Shown here: positions 11,922 through 25,633 of the stretch, piece by piece | How positions within the stretch are numbered: position 1 is the first letter of the stretch | How the letters are laid out: every line of letters starts with the position of its first letter | Assembly (NCBI GenBank): GCA_026001245.1 | Contig: BNZR01000002.1 | Coordinates: forward strand, 1 to 54,646 | From: Clostridia bacterium | Lineage (GTDB): Bacteria; Bacillota_A; Clostridia; Oscillospirales; UBA929 | Reading direction: 5' to 3' | DNA length: 54,646 bases | The notes under the pieces: model-generated | Databases searched by the model: none | Told to the model about the DNA's origin: nothing | The model's input: only the letters and a program-made list of their open reading frames with translations | Translations under genes and position numbers: made by a program

Positions 11922-13024
11922 TTATTAAAAACGCCGAAATCTATCAGCCGGACTTCACATTCAAGAGCGGTGACGCGTATGTCGAGGGCGACAGCTTTGC
12001 AATCAGTACGGGCGGCGAGGTTATCGATGCGGCGGGGCAGTATCTTATCCCCGGCTTGATTGACATTCATCTGCACGGCGCGATGGGGCGCGACTTCTCT
12101 GACGGGGCGAATGAGGACATTGCCACTATGGCGCGGTTTTTGGCGTCCCACGGTGTCACGGCGTTCAGCGCCGCCAGCATGACGCTGCCCGAAGACCAGA
12201 TGATGACCATCGCCAAGACCGCCCGCGAGTATAAAAATTCAAGCGGCGCGATATTCGCGGGGATAACGATGGAGGGGCCGTTTTTCAACGAATGCAAAAA
12301 GGGCGCACAGAACGCAAAGTTCCTGCGCGACCCCGATATTAATTTTTTCAACCACTTCAACGCCGCGTCCGGCGGCCTTGTTAAAGTCGCCTGTGTCGCG
12401 CCCGAGTTGCCCGGCGCGGATGCGTTTATCCCCTACGCGTCTAAAATCTGCACGGTATCCGTGGCGCACACGGACGCGGACTACGACACGGCGCGCCGCG
12501 CCTTCAAGCTTGGTGCCAGGCAAGTTACGCATACCTTTAACGCCATGCCGCCGTTTTCACATCGCGCCCCCGGCGTGGTGGGCGCGGCGGCGGACGCGGG
12601 CGCGTACTGCGAGCTGATATGCGACGGGATACATATCCATCCCGCCATGGTTCGCGCCGCCGTGAAGCTGTTCGGCGCGGACAAGGTTGTGCTGGTAAGC
12701 GACAGTATGCGGGCGGCGGGGCTGTCCGACGGCGATTACTCGCTGGGCGGCCAGAACGTCACGGTCAAGGACGGTAAGGCAACGCTGGCCAACGGCACAA
12801 TAGCGGGCGGCGTGGCCAATCTGATGTATTGCGTGCAAAAAGCCGTGGAATTCGGCGTGCCGCTTGGCGACGCTATCCGAATGGCCACGGCCAATCCCGC
12901 GCATGTCATAGGCGTGTATGACACGATGGGCAGTATCCAACCCGGCAAACTGGCCAACTTCGTCCTGCTGGACAAAAAGCTGAACGTTACGCAGGTTTAT
13001 ATTAAAGGTGTCAGTTATTCCTGA
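11918..13024 (+). CDS. nagA: N-acetylglucosamine-6-phosphate deacetylase
   Basis: 368 residues, amidohydrolase fold. Metal and catalytic residues are visible: IDIHLHG (His51, His53), TMEGPF (Glu119), SVAHTDAD (His184), VTHTFNAM (His205) and catalytic Asp262 in LVSDSM. It removes acetate from GlcNAc-6-P in the cytosol, feeding NagB. It is coupled to nagB by a four-base overlap. Its 3' end overlaps by 14 bases the 3' end of the convergent response-regulator gene, and no terminator separates them. Confidence 0.95.
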   Translation: MIIKNAEIYQPDFTFKSGDAYVEGDSFAISTGGEVIDAAGQYLIPGLIDIHLHGAMGRDFSDGANEDIATMARFLASHGVTAFSAASMTLPEDQMMTIAKTAREYKNSSGAIFAGITMEGPFFNECKKGAQNAKFLRDPDINFFNHFNAASGGLVKVACVAPELPGADAFIPYASKICTVSVAHTDADYDTARRAFKLGARQVTHTFNAMPPFSHRAPGVVGAAADAGAYCELICDGIHIHPAMVRAAVKLFGADKVVLVSDSMRAAGLSDGDYSLGGQNVTVKDGKATLANGTIAGGVANLMYCVQKAVEFGVPLGDAIRMATANPAHVIGVYDTMGSIQPGKLANFVLLDKKLNVTQVYIKGVSYS

Positions 13025-13754
13025 ACTCGCCGGGGGTCTTGTTTGTCAGACGTTTGAACACCTTTGAGAAGTGCGCCGCGTCTGTGTACCCCACCTTGTC
13101 GGAAATTTCATGTATGCGCAGAGCCGGGTCACGGAGTAAATCCTTGGCCACGGCTATTCGCGCTTTGTGCAAGGTGTCCGCAAAGCTGTCCCCCACGTGG
13201 CGTTTAAGCAGCTTTGACAGGTACCACTGGCTGACAAACGTATGCTCCGCCACCTGTTGCAGTGTGATCCGCTCCATGTAATGCTCCTCTATGTAGGCCA
13301 GCGCGTTGCGGACTATAAAGCTGCTTACGCGGGGCGGGTCGTCCTCTGTCTCGACCTCCGGCTCCGCCGTAACGCTGGTGCGGCGCAGACGCTCCGTTAC
13401 GGCGGCCAGCGCGTCGTAAAGCTCGTGAAGCTTCGGGGGCTTTAGCAGGTACCGCGCAACGCCCGCGTTGATGGCGCGTTGGGCGTACATAAAGTCCTGC
13501 ACCTTTGTAAGTATGACAATTTGCAGGAGAGGGTATTCCTCCTGCAAAACCTCGGCCACGCGCAGTCCGTCCGCGCCCGGCATAACCGCGTCAAGGATCA
13601 ATATGTCCGCGCTGTGTTCATGCACGGCGGCAACGCCCCGCACGGCCGCGCTTACGCTGGCCACAACCTCACAGCCATATTTCTCCCAATTAACCTCCTG
13701 CTTAAGGAAGTTGCGCACGAACTCGTCGTTGTCCAACAGTACAACCTTCATCAT
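13011..13754 (-). CDS. YesN-type response regulator with AraC-family DNA-binding domain
   Basis: 247 residues (start ATG 13754, or the next codon ATG). The receiver domain occupies residues 3-118, with phosphoacceptor Asp55 (LILDAVMPG) and Lys105. The C-terminal 100 residues are an AraC/XylS helix-turn-helix pair with the signature LRIHEISDKVGYTDAAHFSKVFKRLTN split over its last helices. YesN-type regulators usually sit beside a YesM sensor kinase and control sugar ABC operons; here no kinase gene adjoins it. Position suggests control of the nag/chb promoters, an inference. It has its own perfect consensus promoter. Confidence 0.88.
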   Translation of the reverse strand: MMKVVLLDNDEFVRNFLKQEVNWEKYGCEVVASVSAAVRGVAAVHEHSADILILDAVMPGADGLRVAEVLQEEYPLLQIVILTKVQDFMYAQRAINAGVARYLLKPPKLHELYDALAAVTERLRRTSVTAEPEVETEDDPPRVSSFIVRNALAYIEEHYMERITLQQVAEHTFVSQWYLSKLLKRHVGDSFADTLHKARIAVAKDLLRDPALRIHEISDKVGYTDAAHFSKVFKRLTNKTPGEFRNN

Positions 13755-13786
13755 AGGCGGGTATAACCCCCTTGTCGTTCGTAATG

Positions 13787-13815
13787 ATTATACTCCAAGA
13801 TGTTCAATTTGTCAA
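13787..13815 (-). promoter_or_regulatory. consensus sigma-A promoter of the response-regulator gene
   Basis: On the minus strand TTGACA (13810-13815), 17 bases, TATAAT (13787-13792): both hexamers and the spacing are perfect, so strong expression is expected. Confidence 0.8.
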
Positions 13816-13820
13816 CGCAG

Positions 13821-13870
13821 TCCCCCACAAAAATTATTCCCGCGGTCCCCCACAAAAATTATTCCCGCGG
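13821..13870. repeat. exact tandem duplication of a 25-base unit
   Basis: Two identical, adjacent 25-base copies (13821-13845 and 13846-13870), each starting TCCCCCACAAAAATT and ending TTCCCGCGG. They lie between the divergent promoters of the response regulator and the transglutaminase-like gene. Confidence 0.95.
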
Positions 13871-13946: not shown

Positions 13947-15248
13947 GTGAAAAACAAGCTGTTTGCAATCAATATTGTGCTTTTGATAATAGCCGTTGGC
14001 GCGTTGGCGCTTAGCGGCTCGTTGTTCACGCCGGACGTTTCGCACGGCGCGGAGTTCGCGCCTATGTCGGACGGGCCGCTGGCGGCCACCGAGGTAGACG
14101 TGACCTCTGTATGGGGCGAGGGCATTGCGCCCCAAGCGTTTGTTACCGAGCTTCAGGCCAAGACCTCCGTTTACATCAGCTACCTCACCCAGCCGGATTT
14201 TCGTCTGCTTGGGCCGCAACCCGTGTCCGTGGTGGTGCGGGATCGCAAAAACCACGAAATAGTTGTACATTCCAAGCTTTTTGTGCTGTCAGGTACGCTT
14301 TCCGCCACTGTTGACGGCGGCGAAGTAAATGTTTCGGACTTTGTCCCTGACGCGCAGGGGCATAACGTGTCTATCAAAGATACGCTCCCCTCTCCCCTGC
14401 CTTCGGGCGTGCTTTCGCTTACATTATTGTTGGACGGGCGCGAATGCCCCGTGACATTAACGGTGAAAGGCACCGCAACGCCGACATCAACGTCAACGCC
14501 CATGCCCTCATCTACGCCGTCCCCCTCCCCCTCGCCGTCCGAAGATCCGGACACCGAAGCCCCCGTGATAACTGGCGCAAAGGATTTGTCCATCATGAAG
14601 GGCGACAAGGTTCAGTACCGCAGTGGGGTCACGGTGACGGACAACCGGGACGAAAGCGTGGAGCTAATGGTGGATTCAAGTGCTGTCAACACGGCGGCCG
14701 AGGGCAAGTATACCGTAGTTTACAGCGCGACGGACGCGGCGGGCAACAAGGCCGAGGTTAAGATAACCGTCACGGTCGGGGTGACCAACGAGGATACCGT
14801 GTACGAGCTGGCCGATAATGTCATCACAAGCTTGAATCTAACAGGGCTGGATACCAAGCAGAAGCTGATAAAAATCCGCACTTGGGTTATCAACAACGTC
14901 GTCTACGAGAATCACGGCGACAAGGACAGCGTTATTTCGGGCGCGTACAACGCTTTCAAGCTTAAAAAAGGCGACTGCTACACGTTTTACGCGGTGTCCG
15001 AGGTGTTACTCACCCGCGCCGGGATTGAAAACATGGAGATAGAGCGCGTTCCGGACAGACCCAGCAAGCATTATTGGAACCTTGTTAAGGTGGACGGCAA
15101 GTGGTACCATTATGACGCCACGCCGCACAAAAAACCTATCGACACCTATATGTTCACCGACGCGGACATAGCAAGCTACGTACAGCTGGGACTGCGCAGT
15201 AACTACTATTACGAGTACAAGGCCTCGCTGTACCCGGAGGTGCAGTAG
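13947..15248 (+). CDS. secreted or membrane-anchored transglutaminase-like protein with Ig-like domain
   Basis: 433 residues from GTG 13947, chosen because GGTGGGGG precedes it and the product then begins with a signal/anchor (MKNKLFAINIVLLIIAVGAL). Residues 45-175 are an uncharacterised beta-rich region; 176-202 are a Thr/Ser/Pro linker; 203-277 resemble DUF5011, an Ig-like domain of surface proteins (DTEAPVITG start); 285-433 are a transglutaminase-like fold with Cys344 (KKGDCYTFYAV), His375 (SKHYWNLV) and Asp390 (WYHYDATP). Such domains act as proteases, peptidases or acyl transferases outside the cell. Its stop overlaps the racemase GTG by one base, so it is the first gene of the dlt-like operon. 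Confidence 0.82.
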   Translation: MKNKLFAINIVLLIIAVGALALSGSLFTPDVSHGAEFAPMSDGPLAATEVDVTSVWGEGIAPQAFVTELQAKTSVYISYLTQPDFRLLGPQPVSVVVRDRKNHEIVVHSKLFVLSGTLSATVDGGEVNVSDFVPDAQGHNVSIKDTLPSPLPSGVLSLTLLLDGRECPVTLTVKGTATPTSTSTPMPSSTPSPSPSPSEDPDTEAPVITGAKDLSIMKGDKVQYRSGVTVTDNRDESVELMVDSSAVNTAAEGKYTVVYSATDAAGNKAEVKITVTVGVTNEDTVYELADNVITSLNLTGLDTKQKLIKIRTWVINNVVYENHGDKDSVISGAYNAFKLKKGDCYTFYAVSEVLLTRAGIENMEIERVPDRPSKHYWNLVKVDGKWYHYDATPHKKPIDTYMFTDADIASYVQLGLRSNYYYEYKASLYPEVQ

Positions 15249-15916
15249 TGCGGACATTAGGCGTAATCGGCGGGATGGGTCCCGAAGCCACGGCGCGTTT
15301 TTACGAGCTGTTCACAACGCTGGACGACGCGGCCTGCGATCAAGACCGCCCCGACGCGATTATCATAAGCCGCCCGTCTATCCCGGACAGGACGCGGCAC
15401 CTGCTGGGGCTGTCGGGCGACGACCCCGCGCCGCATATCGTTCAGGCGGCGCAACAGCTTGCCGCTATGGGCGCGGATTGCGCGGCTATCCCCTGCCTTA
15501 CCTCGCATTGCTACTTGCCGCGCATACTACCGGAGCTTAAGTTGCCGCTGATAGATATGGTTAAGGCGACTACGGAAGCTGTGGCGCAACGCCGCGTGGG
15601 ACTGCTGGCCACGGACGGGACGGTACAAACCGGCCTGTTCGCCGCGCTTGACCCGATATTGCCCGGCGCGGACGGGCAACGGCAGTTGATGAAGATAATC
15701 TACGAGCAGTTGAAGACGCGCAAGTCCCCTTTCAGCGTTGACGCGTTGCTGTCGATAGCGGACGAGCTGTTTGAATCCGGCGCGGAAGTTGTGCTGTTGG
15801 GCTGTACCGAGCTGTCGCTTGCGGCGCGGGATCCCAAAATCGGCGGCGACACGCGCTTTGTTGACCCTTTAAAGCTGTTGGCGCGCCGCGCCCTGGCGTT
15901 TTGCAAGGAGGAGTAA
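15248..15916 (+). CDS. aspartate/glutamate racemase family protein
   Basis: 222 residues starting at GTG 15248 and overlapping the preceding stop by one base. LGVIGGMGPEAT (4-15) is the hallmark N-terminus of the Asp/Glu/hydantoin racemase superfamily; catalytic cysteines lie in AIPCLTSHCYLP and LLGCTELSL, the usual pair of PCNTAH-like and GCTEL motifs (here PCLTSH). These cofactor-independent enzymes invert acidic or other amino acids by two-cysteine proton transfer. Followed after one base by the adenylation gene, it plausibly makes the D-amino acid that is then activated. Substrate identity is not readable from sequence. Confidence 0.87.
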   Translation: MRTLGVIGGMGPEATARFYELFTTLDDAACDQDRPDAIIISRPSIPDRTRHLLGLSGDDPAPHIVQAAQQLAAMGADCAAIPCLTSHCYLPRILPELKLPLIDMVKATTEAVAQRRVGLLATDGTVQTGLFAALDPILPGADGQRQLMKIIYEQLKTRKSPFSVDALLSIADELFESGAEVVLLGCTELSLAARDPKIGGDTRFVDPLKLLARRALAFCKEE

Positions 15917-15917
15917 A

Positions 15918-17390
15918 ATGCAACGCAACCTTATGGAATATCTTGAACACAGCGAAAGGCTGTTCCCCGATAAAACCGCGTTTACGGACGGCAAAACCAG
16001 TCTCACGTTCGCCGAGCTAAGTCAGCGGGCGCGCAGCGTGGGCAGTGCGCTGTCGGATTACAGGCGCGAGCCGATAGCCGTGTTTATGGACAAACAGCCC
16101 GACATGATCGCGGCGTTTTTCGGGGTGCTGTACAGCGGCTGTTTTTACGTGCCGCTTGACGCGGAGATGTCCGCCTATCGTATATCCGCGATTTTGGACG
16201 CGCTGAAGCCGCGAGCCGTAATCTGCGACGCAAAGGCCGCAAAAGCTATGGAGCGGCTGAGCTATGACGGACACATATATATGTATAGCGAACTACTCTC
16301 CGCACCGATCGACAGCCCCGCGCTGGACGCGATTCGCGCCGCCGCGCTGGACACCGACCCCGCGTACCTGGTCTACACTTCGGGTTCCACAGGCACGCCC
16401 AAGGGCGTTGTGGCCAACCACCGCAACGTCATTGATTATATTGAACAGCTAGGCGCGGTGCTTAAGGTGGACGAGCATACGATTTTCGGCAACCAGACCC
16501 CGCTGTATGTGGACGCTTGTTTGAAAGAGCTGTATCCCACAATCAAGTACGGCGCGACTACGGTGATTATCCCCAAGTCGCTGTTCCTGTTCCCGCTTAA
16601 ACTGCTGGAGTTTATCGAAAAGCACAACATCAACACGCTGTGCTGGGTTGTGTCCGCACTAACCATGATTTCCGGCTACGGCGCGTTGGATAGCGCATCT
16701 CCCAAGGGATTGCGGGTTGTGGCTTTCGGCAGTGAGGTGTTCCCGCCCAAGCAACTGCGCCTGTGGCGGCAGGCTCTGCCCGATACGCGCTTTATCAACC
16801 TATACGGGCCGACCGAGGCGACGGGCATGTCCTGCTACTACGAGGTAAAGCGCGATTTTGCGGACGACGAGCCGATTCCGATAGGCCGTGCGTTCCCCAA
16901 CACCGAGGTAATGCTTATAGACGGCGAGATTTACATTCGCGGGGCAGGCGTAGCGTCCGGCTACTATGGGGACGCGGAGCGCACGCATCAGGTGTTTGTG
17001 CAAAACCCGCAAAACGACAAGTATACCGAAATCGTTTATAAAACGGGCGATTTGGCGTATTACAATCCGCACGGGGAGCTGGTCTACAGCTCGCGCCGCG
17101 ACCATCAAATCAAGCACATGGGCTATCGGATAGAGCTTGCGGAAATCGAGGCCGCCGCCGCGTTAGAAGACGGAATTGCGCTGACCTGTTGCGTGTTCGA
17201 CAAAGCCCGAAGCAAAATCGCGCTGTATTACACGGGGACATTGGAATCCGGCGACCTAATCAAGCGATTGGTTGCGCGTCTGCCGCGATACATGGTACCC
17301 GCGTTCGCGGAAAAGCTGGACGCGCTTCCCCTGACCAACAACGGCAAGATAGACCGCGTTACCCTTACAAAAAAAGCGGAGGAAAGATGA
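15918..17390 (+). CDS. DltA-like amino-acid adenylating enzyme (carrier-protein ligase)
   Basis: 490 residues, close to DltA length. AMP-forming motifs: LVYTSGSTGTPKG (151-163), NLYGPTEATG (294-303), YKTGDLAYY (374-382), RDHQIKHMGYRIELAEIE (394-411) and catalytic Lys477 in NGKIDR. Asp199 matches the residue that binds the substrate alpha-amino group, so an amino acid is activated. Other pocket positions differ from DltA: the FCGE motif is FGSE (Gly271 in place of the conserved Cys), and Lys203 occupies a pocket position. A dlt-type role is thus likely, but D-alanine is not assured. The preceding AAGGAGGAGT gives a strong ribosome site, and the stop overlaps the carrier start (ATGA). Confidence 0.88.
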   Translation: MQRNLMEYLEHSERLFPDKTAFTDGKTSLTFAELSQRARSVGSALSDYRREPIAVFMDKQPDMIAAFFGVLYSGCFYVPLDAEMSAYRISAILDALKPRAVICDAKAAKAMERLSYDGHIYMYSELLSAPIDSPALDAIRAAALDTDPAYLVYTSGSTGTPKGVVANHRNVIDYIEQLGAVLKVDEHTIFGNQTPLYVDACLKELYPTIKYGATTVIIPKSLFLFPLKLLEFIEKHNINTLCWVVSALTMISGYGALDSASPKGLRVVAFGSEVFPPKQLRLWRQALPDTRFINLYGPTEATGMSCYYEVKRDFADDEPIPIGRAFPNTEVMLIDGEIYIRGAGVASGYYGDAERTHQVFVQNPQNDKYTEIVYKTGDLAYYNPHGELVYSSRRDHQIKHMGYRIELAEIEAAAALEDGIALTCCVFDKARSKIALYYTGTLESGDLIKRLVARLPRYMVPAFAEKLDALPLTNNGKIDRVTLTKKAEER

Positions 17391-17620
17391 CTATGGAAGC
17401 TTTGCTGAATATCCTGCAAGACCTGCACCCGGAGGTGGACTTCACCGACAATTGCGCGTTGATAGACGACGGGATTTTAGACTCGTTTGACATTATCTCG
17501 ATTATCGCCGCGCTGAACGACGAGTTTGACATCACCGTGTCCGCCGAGGAGATTGTGCCTGAAAACTTCAACTCCGCCGAAGCGCTCTACGCTATGACAC
17601 AGCGTCTGGCGGACGAGTGA
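17387..17620 (+). CDS. acyl/peptidyl carrier protein (DltC-like)
   Basis: 77 residues, a lone carrier. The phosphopantetheine attachment serine is Ser33 in ILDSFDIISI. Acidic composition and helical pattern fit DltC/ACP proteins. It overlaps the adenylation gene by four bases and is followed one base later by the MBOAT gene. It would carry the activated amino acid as a thioester to the membrane acyltransferase. Confidence 0.9.
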   Translation: MTMEALLNILQDLHPEVDFTDNCALIDDGILDSFDIISIIAALNDEFDITVSAEEIVPENFNSAEALYAMTQRLADE

Positions 17621-17621
17621 G

Positions 17622-19079
17622 ATGATATTTACATCGTATCAGTTTCTGCTGTTTTTGCCGCTTGCCGTGGCCGCCTATTACTTGATTTTTCGCAAATATC
17701 AGTGGCAGTTTTTGCTTGCGGCAAGCCTTGTGTTCTACGCGTTTTCGGGCTGGCAGAACCTGCTGTACATCGCCGCGACTATTATAACAACATATATCGC
17801 AACCATCAAGATGTCCAAGCACGGCGGCGACAAGCGAAAAAAGCGGCCTTGGCTTATCGCCTGTCTGGCTGTGAACTTGGGGATTTTGGCGGTTATCAAG
17901 TACGCGGAGTTTGTTGTTGGGATATTCGCGCCGCCCGCCGACGCGGCGTTTTTCCGTTTCGCCCTGCCGCTGGGGCTTAGCTTCTACACGTTCCAAACGC
18001 TAAGCTATTTGATTGACGCATACCGCTCGAAAAAACCGGAGTTCGCGGAGCGCAATCCGTTCAAGCTGGCGTTGTTCACATCGTTCTTTCCCCAAGTGAT
18101 TCAAGGCCCCATAAGCCGCTTCGGCGACCTTAAAAAGACGCTGTTCGCGTCCCACAAGGCCGACTATTCCGATATTTCGGCGGGGGCAATGCGGGTGCTG
18201 TTCGGGTTTTTCAAAAAGCTTGTCGTGGCGGACAGATTGTTGCCCGCCGTGCGGACGCTTACGGGTTCGCCCGACGAGTTTCAGGGCGTTTACGTCCTGC
18301 TTGCGATGTTTTTGTACGCGATTACGCTGTATGCCGACTTCACGGGCGGCATAGACGTGACTATCGGCGCGGCGCGGCTGTTTGGAATCAACCTGAAAGA
18401 AAACTTCGACCGGCCTTTCTATTCAAAATCCATATCCGAGTATTGGCGGCGTTGGCACATCACCATGGGGACGTGGTTCCGCGACTATATCTTCTACCCG
18501 ATGTCGGTTTCAAAGCCCATGCTGGGGCTTATAAAGCCCGCCCGCAAGCTGCTTGGCGACCATTGGGGCAAGCGCGTTCCCGTGTATATCGCCACGATGG
18601 TCACATGGTTCGCCACGGGACTGTGGCACGGCGCCAGCTGGAATTTTATCGTTTGGGGCTTGGTAAACGGCGCGGTAATCTTGATTTCGCAGGAGTTCAC
18701 GCCGCTGTACGAGCGCTTTCACAAGGCCGTACCTATCGGCAAAACGGCGGTCTACGGCGCGTTTCAGATTTTTCGCACGTTTTGGCTGATGTGCTTTATC
18801 CGCACCTTTGACATCTACGCCGACGTGCCGCTTACCTTTAAGATGTTCGGCTCGATAGTCACCGATTTTTGGCACGGCTGGATAGACTTCGGGCTGACCC
18901 TGACCGACTGCGGCGTTGTTGCGGTGTGTATCGCGGTGATGATCGCGGCGGGGCGGCGTAAGCCGCAAAGCCCGGCGGCCAGACTGGCGGCCTGCGGCGC
19001 GTTGGCCTTGGCGATTCTAATCTTCGGCATGTACGGGCTGGGGTATGACGCAAGCCAGTTTATCTACAACAAGTTTTAA
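17622..19079 (+). CDS. MBOAT-family membrane O-acyltransferase (DltB/AlgI-like)
   Basis: 485 residues with about 11 hydrophobic segments. The MBOAT hallmarks are EYWRRWHITMGTWFRDYIFYP-type stretch (273-293) and invariant His336 in FATGLWHGASWNF. In the dlt pathway the homologue takes the aminoacyl group from the carrier and passes it across the membrane; AlgI-like relatives acetylate polysaccharides. Tight coupling to an adenylation/carrier pair favours the aminoacyl role. The last 60 residues are hydrophobic with a short basic loop. Confidence 0.9.
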   Translation: MIFTSYQFLLFLPLAVAAYYLIFRKYQWQFLLAASLVFYAFSGWQNLLYIAATIITTYIATIKMSKHGGDKRKKRPWLIACLAVNLGILAVIKYAEFVVGIFAPPADAAFFRFALPLGLSFYTFQTLSYLIDAYRSKKPEFAERNPFKLALFTSFFPQVIQGPISRFGDLKKTLFASHKADYSDISAGAMRVLFGFFKKLVVADRLLPAVRTLTGSPDEFQGVYVLLAMFLYAITLYADFTGGIDVTIGAARLFGINLKENFDRPFYSKSISEYWRRWHITMGTWFRDYIFYPMSVSKPMLGLIKPARKLLGDHWGKRVPVYIATMVTWFATGLWHGASWNFIVWGLVNGAVILISQEFTPLYERFHKAVPIGKTAVYGAFQIFRTFWLMCFIRTFDIYADVPLTFKMFGSIVTDFWHGWIDFGLTLTDCGVVAVCIAVMIAAGRRKPQSPAARLAACGALALAILIFGMYGLGYDASQFIYNKF

Positions 19080-19093
19080 GGAATGGGGAGACT

Positions 19094-20155
19094 ATGAAGC
19101 TAAAAATCGCGGCGATCGCCGCGGCGTTTATCGTGGCGGCATTGGCTGTTCAGCAGTTGCTTATGCCGAAATACATGTCGTCGGTCTATGACGGCGCGTT
19201 GATTGCCGAGTATTATGGCGAACCGAAGAATCACGAGGTTGTTTTTGTCGGGGACTGCGAGGTTTACGAGAATTTCTCGCCCGTGACGCTGTTTGACGAG
19301 TTCGGCGTTACCTCATACATTCGCGGCGGCCCGCAACAGTTGATTTGGCAGTCGTATTATTTGCTTGAAGACACGTTGCGGTACGAGACTCCAAAGGCCG
19401 TGGTGTTCAACGTGCTGTCAATGCAGTACGGCCAGCCGCAGAACGAGGCCTACAACCGTCTGAATTTAGACGGCATGGCGCTGTCGGCTTCTAAACTCAA
19501 AGCCGTGAATGTCTCTATGACCGAGGGCGAGGACGCGCTTAGCTATTTCGTCCCGATTTTGCGCTATCACGAGCGTTGGGCGGAGCTTACCTCCGACGAT
19601 TTGCGGTATTTTTTCAGCCGCGACATGGTGGGGCATAACGGCTATTACATGCGCAACGACGTGAAGCCCGTGACGATTATCCCGGACGGGCCGAAGCTTG
19701 CCGACTACAGCTTCGCGGAGCAATGCTGGCAGTATCTTGACAAAATGCGGGATCTGTGCGCGGAACGCGGCGTTGAGCTGATTTTGATCAAGGCGCCGAC
19801 CATTTGGCCGCATTGGTACGATCAATGGGAGACCCAAATTGAAGATTACGCCGAGCGCAACGCTCTGCTTTATATAAACTTCTTGGAGCAAACCGATGCG
19901 GCGGGGCTGGATTTTAACACCGACACCTACGACGCGGGACTGCACCTAAACCTTTCGGGCGCGGAGAAGCTGACGCGCTACTTCGGCAAACAGCTAACCG
20001 AACGCGTTGATCTGACGGATTTGCGAAACGACCCCGCCGTCAAGGACGAGTGGGCGAAAAAACGCGAGGCGTACGAGCAAATGAAATCCGCACAGCTAAG
20101 CGAGCTGGCGACCTTGGGCAAAATTGAGACGTTTACGTATAGGAGGATAAAATGA
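19094..20155 (+). CDS. membrane-anchored SGNH-like protein (DltD-position) with Cys at the nucleophile site
   Basis: 353 residues: an N-terminal membrane anchor (residues 4-24), then an extracellular SGNH/DltD-like domain. The block-I motif expected as GDS or GSS reads VFVGDCEVYEN, placing Cys55 where the nucleophilic Ser normally is; the codon is TGC. The block-V motif DTYDAGLHLN (277-286) supplies the Asp280/His284 pair. By position it replaces DltD, which completes transfer of the aminoacyl group to the polymer. GGGGAG precedes the start; the stop overlaps the lipoprotein gene. Whether GDC is the norm in its subfamily needs an alignment. Confidence 0.78.
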   Translation: MKLKIAAIAAAFIVAALAVQQLLMPKYMSSVYDGALIAEYYGEPKNHEVVFVGDCEVYENFSPVTLFDEFGVTSYIRGGPQQLIWQSYYLLEDTLRYETPKAVVFNVLSMQYGQPQNEAYNRLNLDGMALSASKLKAVNVSMTEGEDALSYFVPILRYHERWAELTSDDLRYFFSRDMVGHNGYYMRNDVKPVTIIPDGPKLADYSFAEQCWQYLDKMRDLCAERGVELILIKAPTIWPHWYDQWETQIEDYAERNALLYINFLEQTDAAGLDFNTDTYDAGLHLNLSGAEKLTRYFGKQLTERVDLTDLRNDPAVKDEWAKKREAYEQMKSAQLSELATLGKIETFTYRRIK

Positions 20156-20673
20156 TGAAAAGATTTGCGAGCATAGCGGTACTATTGTTGTTATTGGCGG
20201 GGTGCGCACAGACGCCCGCCGCGTCCCCGTCCGTGCCGCCGACGGATAAAACCACGCCGCAGACAGAGACGGGCTTCGCGTACACCTACAAGTCCGTGCC
20301 GATAACGTTGGGGGCTAAGGCCGACGATTTTATCGCGGCGGCCGGCGAACCGACTAAAGTCTTCGAGTCGCCCAGCTGTGCCTTTGAGGGGATCGACAAA
20401 ATCCTGTACTATCCGGGCTTTGTGATAAACACCTATCCCGACAACGGCGTGGATTTTATCCTGTCGGTGGTGTTTGAGGACGACAGCGTTAAAACCCCGG
20501 AGGGCATATTTTTAGGTTCCTCGGCGGCGGATGTCGAGAGCAAGTACGGCAAGGCGCAAACCTCGGACGCGACACAGCTGAAGTACGTCAAGGGCGACAC
20601 TTCGCTGACGTTTTTGCTGGAGGACGGCGCGGTCAGCGATATTAGCTACAGATACACCAAGGCCGGGGTTTAA
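20152..20673 (+). CDS. small lipoprotein ending the dlt-like operon
   Basis: 173 residues from ATG 20152 (the next codon, ATG 20155, has better spacing from AGGAGG). Lipobox LLLLLAGC gives lipidated Cys18, then a Pro/Ser/Thr linker. The remainder shows two similar halves (ITLGAKADDFIAAAGEP and IFLGSSAADVESKYGK), a layout reminiscent of tandem BamE-like modules. I do not recognise a named family. Operon position suggests an accessory role at the outer membrane face in surface-polymer modification. Confidence 0.72.
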   Translation: MMKRFASIAVLLLLLAGCAQTPAASPSVPPTDKTTPQTETGFAYTYKSVPITLGAKADDFIAAAGEPTKVFESPSCAFEGIDKILYYPGFVINTYPDNGVDFILSVVFEDDSVKTPEGIFLGSSAADVESKYGKAQTSDATQLKYVKGDTSLTFLLEDGAVSDISYRYTKAGV

Positions 20674-20700: not shown

Positions 20701-20729
20701 TTGACAAACGTGCAAAAAGGGACTATAAT
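20701..20729 (+). promoter_or_regulatory. perfect consensus sigma-A promoter of the subtilase gene
   Basis: TTGACA (20701-20706), 17 bases, TATAAT (20724-20729), beginning 28 bases after the lipoprotein stop. It marks an independent, probably strongly expressed unit. Confidence 0.85.
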
Positions 20730-20764
20730 AAACAAAATACGCCCTGAAAGGATTTGATCCGCCC

Positions 20765-23700
20765 ATGAATTCACGTTTTCTTAAAAGATCCCTCAGCGTG
20801 GTCGCCGCGCTTATGCTGGCTTTCAGCATAGCACTGCCCTCCTTCGCCGTTGACGGCGAGGCGCAAGCCAGACGACTTCCCAATTTCCATGACTTTTCAA
20901 GCGCACAGCTTGACGCGCTTCGCACAATTTCCGAAAGCCACGGTATAAACGGTCTTATCGGCTTTAACGGGGATTACGCGCTGAAGGACGGCGATACCCC
21001 CACAAAGGTTATCGTGCTTTTCGGCAACGACCCCGCCGCAACGCAGGTGCTGTCCGCCAAGCTTTCGGGCAAGAGCCTTAGCCTGTCCAAGGCCATTCAA
21101 AACGTTAAGGCCGACCACGCAAACTTTAAAAAAGAGCTTAAATCCGTGGCCGCGAGTGCCGCGCTTAAATTTGAGTACAGCGACGCGATAAACGGCGCGG
21201 CGTTGACGCTTCCCGCCAACCAAGTTGCGGCTTTGGCCGCTTTGCCGACCGTGCGCGCCGTGTACCCCGACAGGCTTGTCACCATCGATGCGCCCTCCGC
21301 GCCCTATACCGGCCGCGACCCCGAGGGTATGCAGACGGGTCGCGCACACACGGGCGCGAATGATCTGCACGCGCTGGGCTACACCGGCAAGGGCGTAACA
21401 GTCGCCATTCTTGACACCGGTATCGACTACAACCACCCCGCCTTTGCGGGCGCGTTCCTAACCGAATCGCCCACGAAGGACCCGGCTGACCTTATAGACG
21501 GCGTTTTCTACGGACGCAACTATGTAAACGAGGCCGAATACGGCTATCCGCTGTACAACGACGGAACGGTCGCCGCGAAGAACGACCCCATGGAGACTAC
21601 ATACTACGGCTGGGAAGGCACGGACTATCCCGAAGAAATCCCGGGCTTGGGCGAATTCTACACCTCGCACGGTACCCATGTCGCGGGGACAATCGCGGGG
21701 CGCGACGTGGCCGCTGACGCCGCGGACGGCACCCCCGGCGTGCTGGGCATGGCTCCCGAAGCCAACATCTACTCCTACCGCGTACTCGGCCCCTACGGTT
21801 CGGGCTACGGCTCCGGCATTATCGCCGCCATCAATCAGGTTGCCACGGACAAGCCCGACGTTGTTAACATGTCGCTGGGCAGCTCCGTCAACGACCCCTT
21901 TGACCTTCAAGCGATCGCCGTAAACAACGTCACGCTTGACCCCGCCAACAACAACGTGCTGTTCGCCATCTCGGCGAGTAACAGCGGCGAATACGGCCTG
22001 TACTCGCTGGGTACGCCCGGCGTGGCCTCGCTTGCCATCACCGTCGGCGCGGCCTCCGAACCCAACAACCAAGCCGGAATCATCGGCGGCGGCGTGCAGT
22101 TCGGCTTCACCGCCACCAAGGCCGGCTCGCTGGTAACTGACAAGGCCTACGGCGTGGTCTACATGCCGCAGCTTACCGTATTGGAATCCCAAGTCGCCGT
22201 CCCCGGTATCGGTTCGGGTTCCTCCGAGGAATGGGCGAAGTTACTGGGCTTTGTTACCCCTGAAGTGCCGCAGCTTGCCGATTGGCTTGAGATAATCAGC
22301 GTCGAAAGCGCCCGTGATTTGGTTCAATTTATCTATTACTCGAACAATACCGCTGACTTTGCGGGTTTCTTCGGCGAAATCGGCACTGATATTGACTTTG
22401 AAGACGCGTTGGACATCATAGCGTACTATCTGTTCGACATTGACTTTGAGGCCGCGTTCCCCGACAGCGCGGACTATTACGACGACTTGGCCGTTATACT
22501 GGACGGCACGCTGGAAAATCTGCTGGGCATTCTGGGTATCGAGACCACGGCGGATCTGTTTGACGTGGCGTCCCAAGGCTGGGACGACTACGTTCAGGCG
22601 GCCAACGACGCAATCGCGGACGACAGCCCGATTGCGGGCAAATTTGTGGTGCTGGGGCGCGGACAGAACTTCCAGTCCAACCACGACTGGGCGAAGAAAT
22701 ACGGCGCGGCCGGCGTTATCTTGGTAGACCGTGTCACGGGTGCGCTGTCCGCTGACAGCGTGGGCGTTAAGGGCGATTTGCCGTTCCTATACTTGGACAA
22801 CGCGCAGGGCCTGAAGTTCACGAAGACTTTGCCCGACACTCTTACGTTCAGCAAATTCGTGAAAGCGAACACCAAGCTGGCCGACCTGTCCTCACGCGGC
22901 CCCGTGAACGGCTCCTACGAAATCAAGCCCGACGTGCTGGCGCAGGGCATTGACGTGTACTCCTCCGTTCCGAAGTACATCACGGGCAACCACAAGGCCA
23001 CGGATTACGCGGACGCGTATGAGGGCGGCTGGAACGGCACGTCCATGTCCTCGCCCCATGTGGCGGGTGCCATCGCCCTGCTGAAACAGGCCACCGACGG
23101 CCTTTCGTCCGGCGAGCTGAAAGCCCTGCTGATGAACAACGCCGAAATCCTTGACGGCAACTACAGCGTCTACGAGACGGGCGCGGGCTACATACAAGTC
23201 GCAAAGGCGTACGAGGCCTCGAAGCTGGGCTACGTGACGGTTGCGTATGACGACGCGAACATCTCCGTAGTCGAAGAAATTGACGGCGGCGACGGCGCGA
23301 CGCAAACCAGCCTGAAAAAAGCAATCTCTGACACGGGTTCGTTCAGCTTCGGCGGCGTTGACGTGTTCAGCAAGGACGGCTTCGGCGCGTCCGAGAGCAT
23401 CTACACAAAGACACTGACCGCCACAATCCACAACACCTCCGGCACGGACAAAACCTACAGCCTGTCGTACGAGAAAAACGCGGCCGGCAACGGCGCGGCC
23501 ACGAAATGGCCGACAGGCGCGTCACTGGTGTTAGGCCAGAGTAGCGTGCCTGTCTCGGCGGGAGCGACCGCCGACTTCACCGCCACGCTGACACTGCCCG
23601 CCGGGCTGACGCTGGACAATGTCGGCTCCTACGAGGGTCTTATAACCGTGACAAGCGGCGCGGAGAGCTACAGCCTGCCGTTCGCGGCTCGCGTAAGCGA

Positions 23701-25633
23701 GGATCGCCCCATTATCACGAATGTGGAGCTTACGCGCAACCTTATCTCCACCAATCCCAACAGCTTGGATTGGTCGGGCGCGTTCATTGATGTGACCTAC
23801 AACTCTTGGCGCGAGAGCATTCAGGAGTACTTCCTGTTCGACGCGGCGACCTTTGACCCCACAAATTGGGACAACGGCGCGCTTGCTGGCGAATTGTTCC
23901 TCGGCATGTCCTACAGCGATGTAAATGACGGCTCGTCTGTCTCCGCCACGTTGCCCTTGGGGGCGTTGCTCACCCCGGACGAAGAGCTGATTCCCATTCC
24001 GCAGGGCGAGTACATACTGGCATGGAACAGCTTTGATGTCAACAACCGTTACTTGGGCGACGGCTACGCGAAAAACGCACATGTAATCGTGGACAACACC
24101 CCCGCCGCGCTTGCGCTGTCCGGCCTTGAAAACGGCGTAGTCGCCACCGGCAGTACAATCACGGGTACGGTCACCAAGGCCGGCAGCGACAACGCTCTGT
24201 TCGCAAGCGTCAACGGCGCGGACGCCGAGCCGGTGGCATTGCTGGGCGGCGGCGCGTTCAACTACAAGGTTCCCGCCGACGCTAAGACCGTCACATTCTA
24301 CGCGGTGGATAACTATCAGCAACACTTAGATACGTTTACCTACTTCGGCTCCCCTCTCAAAATTTCGGATCTTTGGGAGTGGAAATACCCGATCGCCCCG
24401 AACACCGCCGACGGCAAATCGTGGATTGGCGGCAACGTCACCGAGACGACCTTGCTGGTTGCGGACGCTGTCCCCGACTCGATTACCATCAAGGGCGACG
24501 AGGGCAGCTATCTTTCCTCCACCTTGCTGGACACGTTGCTGGACGGCGAAATTCAGCTGATTGTTGATCTAGACCAAAGCTCACTTTACCCCGACCAAGA
24601 CGCGCTGCAAGCCGTTGCGGATTGGATTGACGAGCTGGGCGGTTCGGCCTACTTCTACCTGTACGCCGAGGAAAACACCAAGGTCACCGGGCTGGACTTT
24701 GACCCGCAAGCGGTGGTCTACAACCTGGGCATAGTCGTAAACGGCACCGAGGTTGACGACCTAAACGGCGGCACGGTTCACGTCCGAGCGGCGTACACGT
24801 TGCCCGAAAAGGCATCCGTCAAAACCCTAACCATATCCCCCATCAAAGCCGAGGATGTGGACACGCTTGCCCAAAAGGAGCCCCCCTTGGCCGACGGCAC
24901 CTACAACGAGGACGGCTCTGTTGAGTTCACCGCGCTTCACTTCTCGTGGTACGTGGTAGAGGTTGACCTGCTGGGCTTCTCCTACGACAGAGGCCACTGG
25001 TATGACGACTACATCGAGGATCTTGACCCGGCAGGCACGGGCATATGGAAGGATTATCTTGACGCGGACGGCTACTTGGACGCAAACGCCGAGATAACCC
25101 GTATCCAATTCGTGGTATCGCTGCTTAAGTCTTTGGAGATTGAACCCGTTGAGTATGTGGCGACAGAGACTTCGCTTGCAACCGCTACATCAGTCGCCAG
25201 CTCTACGTCGATCTCCAGCCCGACAACGCTAGTCCCGTTCCTTGATGCCGACCAACTCACCGACGAGCAACAGGGCTACCTGTACGCGGCGCAGTCGATT
25301 GGCATAGTGAACGGCGTGGGCGACGATTTGTTTGACCCCTATGGGGACGCGGAGCGCGTCCACCAATTCCAGATTATTTGGAAGCTGTTGAAATACCAAG
25401 AAGCGGATCTAACCGCCATCAACGAGCTGACAGTCGCCGACTTCGCGGATCCCGAAACCATTCCCGATTGGGCGTTGCAGGCCACAAGTGCCTTGATTGC
25501 GATAGGCGAGGTCACGGGCGACAGAGATTTAACCTTGGCCAGATCCGCCGCGTCCAACCTAAAGGGCGGCCGCACGCTGTTGCTAAGCGACCTGGCGGCA
25601 CTGCTCTACAGACACAGACTAATCGCGGAGTAA
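20765..25633 (+). CDS. giant secreted S8 subtilisin-like protease (lactocepin type) with S-layer homology region
   Basis: 1622 residues. Signal peptide 1-28 (ending PSFA), an I9-like propeptide region to about 175, then a subtilase domain with Asp217 (AILDTGID), His302 (TSHGTHVAG) and Ser760 (WNGTSMSSPHVAG). The long His-Ser gap holds a protease-associated (PA) insert near 630-700 and an extra acidic region, as in cell-envelope proteinases. Beyond 800 come Fn3/Ig-like beta domains. The last 200 residues resemble S-layer homology modules (around ITRIQFVVSLLK, and FADPETIPDWA), expected to bind secondary cell-wall polymer. Function: surface proteolysis of peptides for nutrition or maturation. 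It is the only gene between its promoter and the terminator at 25646. Confidence 0.92.
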   Translation: MNSRFLKRSLSVVAALMLAFSIALPSFAVDGEAQARRLPNFHDFSSAQLDALRTISESHGINGLIGFNGDYALKDGDTPTKVIVLFGNDPAATQVLSAKLSGKSLSLSKAIQNVKADHANFKKELKSVAASAALKFEYSDAINGAALTLPANQVAALAALPTVRAVYPDRLVTIDAPSAPYTGRDPEGMQTGRAHTGANDLHALGYTGKGVTVAILDTGIDYNHPAFAGAFLTESPTKDPADLIDGVFYGRNYVNEAEYGYPLYNDGTVAAKNDPMETTYYGWEGTDYPEEIPGLGEFYTSHGTHVAGTIAGRDVAADAADGTPGVLGMAPEANIYSYRVLGPYGSGYGSGIIAAINQVATDKPDVVNMSLGSSVNDPFDLQAIAVNNVTLDPANNNVLFAISASNSGEYGLYSLGTPGVASLAITVGAASEPNNQAGIIGGGVQFGFTATKAGSLVTDKAYGVVYMPQLTVLESQVAVPGIGSGSSEEWAKLLGFVTPEVPQLADWLEIISVESARDLVQFIYYSNNTADFAGFFGEIGTDIDFEDALDIIAYYLFDIDFEAAFPDSADYYDDLAVILDGTLENLLGILGIETTADLFDVASQGWDDYVQAANDAIADDSPIAGKFVVLGRGQNFQSNHDWAKKYGAAGVILVDRVTGALSADSVGVKGDLPFLYLDNAQGLKFTKTLPDTLTFSKFVKANTKLADLSSRGPVNGSYEIKPDVLAQGIDVYSSVPKYITGNHKATDYADAYEGGWNGTSMSSPHVAGAIALLKQATDGLSSGELKALLMNNAEILDGNYSVYETGAGYIQVAKAYEASKLGYVTVAYDDANISVVEEIDGGDGATQTSLKKAISDTGSFSFGGVDVFSKDGFGASESIYTKTLTATIHNTSGTDKTYSLSYEKNAAGNGAATKWPTGASLVLGQSSVPVSAGATADFTATLTLPAGLTLDNVGSYEGLITVTSGAESYSLPFAARVSEDRPIITNVELTRNLISTNPNSLDWSGAFIDVTYNSWRESIQEYFLFDAATFDPTNWDNGALAGELFLGMSYSDVNDGSSVSATLPLGALLTPDEELIPIPQGEYILAWNSFDVNNRYLGDGYAKNAHVIVDNTPAALALSGLENGVVATGSTITGTVTKAGSDNALFASVNGADAEPVALLGGGAFNYKVPADAKTVTFYAVDNYQQHLDTFTYFGSPLKISDLWEWKYPIAPNTADGKSWIGGNVTETTLLVADAVPDSITIKGDEGSYLSSTLLDTLLDGEIQLIVDLDQSSLYPDQDALQAVADWIDELGGSAYFYLYAEENTKVTGLDFDPQAVVYNLGIVVNGTEVDDLNGGTVHVRAAYTLPEKASVKTLTISPIKAEDVDTLAQKEPPLADGTYNEDGSVEFTALHFSWYVVEVDLLGFSYDRGHWYDDYIEDLDPAGTGIWKDYLDADGYLDANAEITRIQFVVSLLKSLEIEPVEYVATETSLATATSVASSTSISSPTTLVPFLDADQLTDEQQGYLYAAQSIGIVNGVGDDLFDPYGDAERVHQFQIIWKLLKYQEADLTAINELTVADFADPETIPDWALQATSALIAIGEVTGDRDLTLARSAASNLKGGRTLLLSDLAALLYRHRLIAE

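Follow-up and report, generated by a model that had tools for sequence, protein, structure and literature searches.

The 54,646-nucleotide stretch of DNA analysed here (the window; positions 1 to 54,646 of contig BNZR01000002.1 from a Clostridia bacterium) carries a seven-gene operon at positions 13947-20673 that is conserved and represents a genuine variant of Dlt-type aminoacylation. Its substrate is probably an acidic amino acid, and D-aspartate is the best single guess. With a probability of roughly 0.55, we propose that the seven genes encode one surface-aminoacylation pathway that is related to Dlt and serves an acidic amino acid, with D-aspartate as the likeliest candidate. No description of the seven-gene combination was found in the literature searched, which omits most subscription journals. 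This agrees with an earlier annotation made from the DNA letters alone (the sequence-only reading), which knew of no described system of this composition. All seven open reading frames (ORFs) are located on the + strand:

13947..15248, +, membrane-anchored or secreted protein with an immunoglobulin (Ig)-like domain and a transglutaminase-like core (PF16403, PF01841)
15248..15916, +, Asp/Glu-family racemase, PhAspR-like (TIGR00035; Cys83, Cys186, Arg48, Lys156)
15918..17390, +, adenylation-domain ligase, DltA-like (AMP-binding A domain; pocket code DAKCVFLGMK; Lys203 codon at 16524-16526)
17387..17620, +, carrier protein with a DSFD phosphopantetheine site at Ser33 (PF00550; start codon ATG at 17387)
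17622..19079, +, MBOAT transferase with His279 and His336 and a fused C-terminal FIYNKF at 19059-19076 (PF03062, TIGR04091)
19094..20155, +, membrane-anchored protein with an SGNH fold, GDS replaced by GDCE (Cys55 codon at 19256-19258; His284)
20152..20673, +, predicted lipoprotein with a two-repeat alpha/beta fold (lipobox; weak likeness to YfeY/YjgB)

Neighbouring genes are separated by -1, 1, -4, 1, 14 and -4 bases. These distances of -4 to 14 bases bear out the sequence-only reading of a seven-gene set joined by overlaps or gaps of at most 14 bases. Gene 1 starts with GTG at 13947, and its longest frame begins at 13800.

The seven genes are one conserved unit. The locus sample comprised the best 80 of at least 556 confirmed relatives, found via a 24-row ligase alignment and annotated with models built iteratively from the window's proteins. 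The search patterns included NT[VI]CWVV, so that conservation of Cys242 is partly selected; Lys203 lies outside the patterns. Among the 65 loci with at least 3 kb of left flank, the transglutaminase-like gene is present in 64 and the racemase gene in 55, and in 49 the racemase gene immediately precedes the ligase gene. To the right, the carrier, MBOAT and SGNH genes were found in 57/58 loci with at least 5.2 kb of flank and the lipoprotein gene in 49/58. Where both flanks sufficed, all seven genes are present in 37/52 loci. Clustering of the remaining ORFs yielded no neighbour more common than one in 9/80 loci. Because these genes recur across the 80 loci and their flanks are not shared, the set is more than a chance assembly, which answers the genome search for gene-set conservation that the sequence-only reading had proposed as a check. 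Named hosts include Lachnospiraceae, Oscillospiraceae, Clostridiaceae, Alkalibacter, Paenibacillus and Stoquefichus; in the Paenibacillus group, 6 of 51 genomes encode the ligase. A protein search with sister types pooled returned 7990 relatives among 7998 scored proteins. On plasmids, one ligase relative was detected at E 1e-60 (34.8% identical), and the two pattern matches on viral contigs are not relatives. The Anaerolineaceae locus L050 is perhaps derived from a contaminated metagenome-assembled genome, as its racemase groups with those of Clostridiales/Lachnospiraceae. Genome G087 has the system divided between two contigs, with the ligase gene in L014 and the racemase, carrier, MBOAT, SGNH and lipoprotein genes in L140:4866-12184.

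A second sample, 196 genomes drawn from a single class (the class draw), was free of the search patterns. Here, 30 genomes match at E 1e-140: 16 contain a ligase of this type, picked by a score of at least 730 bits, and 14 a lower-scoring sister ligase. Thirteen of the 16 loci were fetched; the other three (G002, G013, G015) were already among the 80.

The substrate pocket of the ligase carries the argument for an acidic amino acid. The protein scores 233.7 and 241.1 bits with the DltA models, below their cut-offs of 559.85 and 476, and its closest PDB relatives are nonribosomal peptide synthetase (NRPS) adenylation domains. We placed the ten pocket positions by what we take to be the GrsA numbering. 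The codes in the 80 loci are nearly uniform: DAKCIFLGMK in 46, DAKCVFLGMK in 33 and DAKCIFLGIK in one. The canonical DltA code DLM[TV]FF[TA]VAK was found in all five controls read out of seven loci over the family cut-off. In DltA, Leu, Met and Cys flank the methyl group of D-alanine, with the Cys selecting for the D-form over the L-form, as stated in the available portion of the source (PMC8972799). The controls have the Leu and the Met in 5/5 and the Cys in 4/5 cases. None of the three is present in the window ligase, where Ala200, Lys203 and Gly271 take their places, and the relatives have Ala in 80/80, Lys in 80/80 and Gly in 79/80 loci. In the class draw, the Lys203 position is occupied by Lys in 12/13 ligases and by Arg in one. 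The latter, from L152 (G187:C50), has the code DARCIFLGIK with Arg for the conserved Lys, and its cluster lacks a linked racemase. The other side-chain positions of the pocket do not contain any acidic residue. A retained positive charge together with the lack of an acidic side-chain position points to an acidic substrate, so that, judged from the pocket sequence, the amino acid probably has an acidic side chain. Charge pairing has a precedent in Arg-activating adenylation domains that use Glu239 and Asp278 (excerpt of PMC12283262).

The racemase is the second line of evidence. It scores 145.9 bits with TIGR00035 (cut-off 93.1) and matches the aspartate racemase of P. horikoshii, PhAspR (PDB 1jfl), at E 6.6e-39. 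Cys83, Cys186, Arg48 and Lys156 align with PhAspR C82, C194, R48 and K164, and all four are kept in 65/65 relatives. R48 and K164 of PhAspR presumably hold the side-chain carboxylate. In the class draw, a racemase at E 1e-50 is present in 13/16 ligase genomes compared to 29/180 others (P 1.3e-7, uncorrected for kinship); the 14 sister-ligase genomes, which are part of the 180, contribute three. In L154, the racemase gene was counted as linked and the gene order is different. A quick tree, with weak forks and a long branch for the window protein, places 61 of 66 operon racemases in one group, and the copies from Paenibacillus, L063 and L077 fall outside it. This scatter suggests that recruitment of the racemase gene may have happened repeatedly. 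The correlation of identities was not used as evidence for co-evolution: the racemase-ligase value (r 0.67, 55 rows) does not stand out from those of the other gene pairs, which range over 0.56-0.81.

Ten flanked loci lack a racemase gene. In all ten cases, a relative lies at another place in the genome (202-363 bits); two of these matches contain an inner stop. Nine of the ten distant places were read. An ATP-grasp gene precedes the unlinked racemase gene in five of them (L132-L135, L139); in L135 and L139, the contig ends within it. Four of the five ATP-grasp genes, from closely related hosts, are 86-100% alike, and the one in L133 is 53% alike. The other four places do not have an ATP-grasp gene; one of them is L140, part of the split cluster. 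The ATP-grasp protein is 36-37% identical to three lactobacillar gene products, of which two bear the name carboxylate-amine ligase, and in the Latilactobacillus neighbourhood aspS, racemase, ligase and aspartate decarboxylase genes form one run. In L. lactis, racD and aslA constitute one operon for the D-aspartate cross-bridge, according to the accessible text of PMC4155827. Because unlinked racemases often stand beside an ATP-grasp gene, as in the racD/aslA context, a source of D-aspartate would often be at hand in loci without a racemase gene of their own.

The carrier, the MBOAT protein and the SGNH-fold partner have counterparts in Dlt. Ser33 of the carrier is conserved in 76/76 loci; the score with the DltC model is 37.4 (cut-off 68). 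The MBOAT protein scores 157.6 with the DltB model TIGR04091 (cut-off 375). It has the conserved His of its family (His336, 71/71) and a C-terminal FXYXXF motif, here FIYxxF, in 70/76 rows including the window; in the other six, the motif is not in the ORF used. The fused motif was found in 13/13 loci of the class draw and in 0/5 canonical DltB proteins. In MBOAT-SGNH systems, the acyl group passes via the Tyr of FXYXXF, a motif that Dlt has on the separate DltX and PatA at the end of the MBOAT protein itself; a carrier-fed donor is paired with DltX, an acyl-CoA donor with a fused tail (parts of PMC12148441). A separate DltX is absent from the operon, whose gaps of at most 14 bases leave no room for it. 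Neither gene 6 nor gene 7 yielded a family match at E 0.001, and PF13472 hits two gene 6 relatives below its cut-off. The AlphaFold model of the gene 6 product (predicted local distance difference test, pLDDT, 88.5) has structural matches that include TesA, DltD and PatB, and an SGNH fold is predicted for it on this basis. Its nucleophile motif is GDCE in 68/68 rows including the window and in 13/13 loci of the class draw, versus GSSE in 5/5 canonical DltD proteins. The alignment with TesA pairs residue 46 of the model with residue 1; Cys55 would thus correspond to Ser10 if the alignment is ungapped.

The two outermost genes encode proteins without a counterpart in Dlt. In the transglutaminase-like protein, Cys344, His375 and Asp390 are conserved in 73/73, 75/75 and 75/75 aligned loci, and we take them to act as a triad. 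Its top PDB matches span only the Ig-like part. The lipobox Cys18 of the lipoprotein is conserved in 55/56 cases. The lipoprotein model (pLDDT 85.8) gave a best Foldseek match at E 7e-4 (9j9w), followed by YfeY at 1.7e-3, with template-modelling (TM) scores of at most 0.51.

We infer which amino acid is used and in which handedness, how each transfer proceeds, what accepts the residue and what both outer proteins do; the route would run as follows. In the cytosol, the racemase would convert L-aspartate into D-aspartate. The ligase would adenylate D-aspartate, with Lys203 gripping the side-chain carboxylate, and then load it onto the carrier protein. The MBOAT protein would move the residue across the membrane and pass it to the Tyr in the FIYxxF motif at its own C-terminus. 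From there, the SGNH-fold partner would take it over as a thioester on Cys55 and transfer it to an acceptor on the surface. Outside the cell, the lipoprotein and the transglutaminase-like protein would act on this acceptor or near it. Given a transferase with a Cys nucleophile, the product could be an amide instead of the wall-polymer ester that the sequence-only reading had proposed.

Several observations weigh against the D-aspartate pathway, and some of them fit a pathway of the same design for another acidic or near-acidic amino acid, i.e. D-glutamate, cysteate, asparagine or an L-form, in which the racemase would serve for balance or for another path. We consider this possible, at clearly lower odds than the D-aspartate pathway. 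The NCBIfam model nearest to the racemase is NF052483, the cysteate racemase CuyB; the window protein stays below its cut-off (179.5 vs. 190) and the relative in L140 exceeds it (200.6). At residue 84 (codon at window 15497-15499), most operon-linked racemases have a hydrophobic residue instead of the active-site Asn of the CNT motif: the window has Leu84, 58 of 65 relatives have I, M or V, and six have Asn. Because Asn84 is replaced in most relatives, the substrate of the racemase may differ from aspartate. An alignment places a Cys at the same position of McyF, so Asn is not required in the racemase family. Furthermore, three of the 16 ligase genomes lack a racemase at E 1e-50, and the gene is linked in only 6/13 loci of the class draw, one miss (L157) being cut by a contig end. 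Lack of a conserved racemase beside the ligase, which the sequence-only reading had named as a refuting result, is thus seen in part: the gene accompanies the ligase in 55/65 loci of the best-80 sample and in 6/13 of the class draw. An unlinked racemase also occurs in five of the eight genomes with DltA at E 1e-150, so the racemase alone is no marker of the system. The ATP-grasp gene is assigned as a putative D-aspartate ligase by similarity, and among four plasmid neighbourhoods of such genes the racemase adjoins one, is absent from two, and one is unannotated. On the ligase side, aspartate and asparagine adenylation domains share the code DLTKVGHVGK, as given in the part of PMC12283262 consulted, so that such codes need not distinguish an acid from its amide. 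A known substrate for the pocket code of the present ligases was not found in the literature searched. What argues for D-aspartate over these other amino acids is the retention of Arg48 and Lys156 in 65/65 racemases and the ATP-grasp gene of D-aspartate-ligase type, by similarity, next to five of nine unlinked racemase genes.

Two further explanations appear improbable. One of them is a clostridial replacement of dlt that still loads D-alanine. It would account for the distribution of DltA, which is over its cut-off in none of 26 ligase genomes (best score 311 bits) and absent from all 51 Paenibacillus-group genomes, six of which have the ligase. In the class draw, DltA at E 1e-150 was detected in 8/196 genomes, one of them above the curated threshold; the 16 ligase genomes include none of the eight. 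Zero overlap of 16 and 8 in 196 is expected half the time (P 0.50), and we do not claim mutual exclusion with dlt. A genome with both systems was not encountered in the samples tested for both. However, all three D-alanine pocket residues are replaced, one of them by Lys, and the linked racemase is of the Asp/Glu and not of the alanine type. The sequence-only reading had likewise proposed a dedicated racemase for an amino acid other than alanine. The lost D-alanine pocket, the Lys invariant in the 80 loci, the kept catalytic residues of the racemase and its co-occurrence with the ligase support it as far as the amino acid, probably an acidic one, is concerned. Similarly small is the chance that the genes form an aminoacyl natural-product or lipid-modifying cluster whose product is a secreted molecule rather than a polymer. 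NRPS adenylation domains as the best PDB relatives of the ligase agree with such a role, and the lipoprotein and the transglutaminase-like protein could handle a peptide. Against it, no other gene stands beside the cluster in more than 9/80 loci, and an MBOAT protein with FXYXXF plus an SGNH partner fits acylation of the envelope. The D-aspartate pathway is preferred over both.

Sister clusters place the operon in a broader context. Seven of the 14 lower-scoring sister ligases of the class draw were fetched, and L114, L116 and L117 were read in addition. In the seven fetched loci, the carrier is in view in all, MBOAT in five and SGNH in four; sister clusters with the SGNH gene in view have GDS, GNS or GSS. 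The pocket codes comprise DVK[IT][IV]F[LV]CNK, DSKDIFIVDK, DIQYIFVVNK, DSQPVFVVDK and SM[SL]YVFLDIK. A pyridoxal phosphate (PLP) gene with a decarboxylase or alanine-racemase fold is present in 5/5 sisters with the DVK code (L116, L117, L159, L161, L163); in the clusters L116:5147-10762 and L117:9923-15475, it is located between ligase and carrier genes. It is absent from the 80 loci, from the 13 drawn loci and from the other sisters L114, L118, L158, L160, L162 and L164. Since the PLP gene occurs only with the DVK code, pocket and tailoring amino-acid enzyme go together, which supports the idea of a wider group of amino-acid-specific envelope systems. In L114:8473-12763 and L162, the ligase (SM[SL]YVFLDIK) has Ser for the amino-group-binding Asp, and because of this exchange its substrate is perhaps not an amino acid. 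L158 (G248:C29:6000-18000; code DSKDIFIVDK) combines a fused FIYRGF with a GSS partner. L118:8436-13223, from a Flavonifractor-type genome, has two tandem ligases with DNFF codes, a carrier and a 384 aa MBOAT protein. Tentatively, and with considerable doubt, one might go further: a widespread class would put D-aspartate on a surface acceptor and so provide a zwitterionic or negative group where Dlt provides a positive one, the aspartyl thioester would favour amines and yield an amide that is then used or cross-linked by the transglutaminase-like protein, and sister clusters would each have their own pocket and amino-acid enzyme.

Several further features were noted around the operon. Next downstream, 91 bases from the operon, is an S8 protease gene (20765-25633) with its own perfect TTGACA-17-TATAAT box; this large subtilase and its sigma-70-type box occupy window positions 20701-25633. 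None of the 80 loci contains a homolog of this gene, which with its separate promoter box led us to reject it as an eighth member. Upstream nagA/nagB were also rejected, since no such cluster is among the 30 commonest neighbour clusters listed. A gene for an AraC-type response regulator (13011-13815, minus strand) diverges from the operon and has a perfect TTGACA-17-TATAAT box at 13815-13787. Immediately upstream of the operon, positions 13820-13869 contain an exact tandem duplicate of a 25-base stretch. Inside the operon, which the sequence-only reading took to lack an internal promoter, a promoter-like match (10/12) is found at 20124-20153 on the + strand; between 13000 and 21000, both strands together have 16 such matches, with 4.8 expected.

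D-alanylation sets the surface charge of many Gram-positives and hence their response to cationic peptides and antibiotics. If the proposal is true, surface aminoacylation would be a family of chemistries, with an acidic route in Lachnospiraceae, Oscillospiraceae, Clostridiaceae and Paenibacillus, among others. This raises a direct question: Which D-amino acid do these bacteria of gut, rumen and soil carry on their envelope? Moreover, the system offers a natural Ser-to-Cys change in the SGNH-fold partner and a carrier-fed MBOAT protein with a built-in shuttle motif.

Single components are shared with several known systems. McyF of the microcystin NRPS cluster is a PhAspR-like racemase (PDB 5wxx), as is the one described here. 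It presumably adjoins adenylation enzymes as well, in a cluster that we take to make a secondary metabolite without MBOAT and SGNH proteins. In the racD/aslA cross-bridge system, an aspartate racemase also feeds D-aspartate to the envelope (available text of PMC4155827), and in Latilactobacillus a racemase of the same family stands beside an ATP-grasp ligase-type gene; the present system instead has an adenylation enzyme and a carrier, and export by the MBOAT protein is proposed. PatA/PatB, which O-acetylate peptidoglycan, likewise combine an MBOAT protein with a C-terminal FXYXXF Tyr shuttle and a separate SGNH partner. PatA, however, takes acetyl-CoA, whereas here a ligase and a carrier are encoded and a Cys is at the nucleophile position; measured against the excerpts of PMC12148441, a carrier-fed donor with a fused tail is a mix of the Dlt and PatA arrangements. 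With Dlt (dltX-A-B-C-D, D-alanylation of teichoic acids), the operon shares the adenylating ligase, the carrier, the MBOAT protein with its conserved His, the SGNH-fold partner and the tight gene arrangement. Nevertheless, the seven-gene system is not canonical dlt: the pocket has Ala/Lys/Gly for Leu/Met/Cys, an Asp/Glu-type racemase of its own is encoded, the shuttle motif is fused to the MBOAT protein with no room for dltX, Cys replaces Ser in the SGNH partner, a transglutaminase-like protein and a lipoprotein are added, and the scores lie far below the DltA, DltB and DltC cut-offs.

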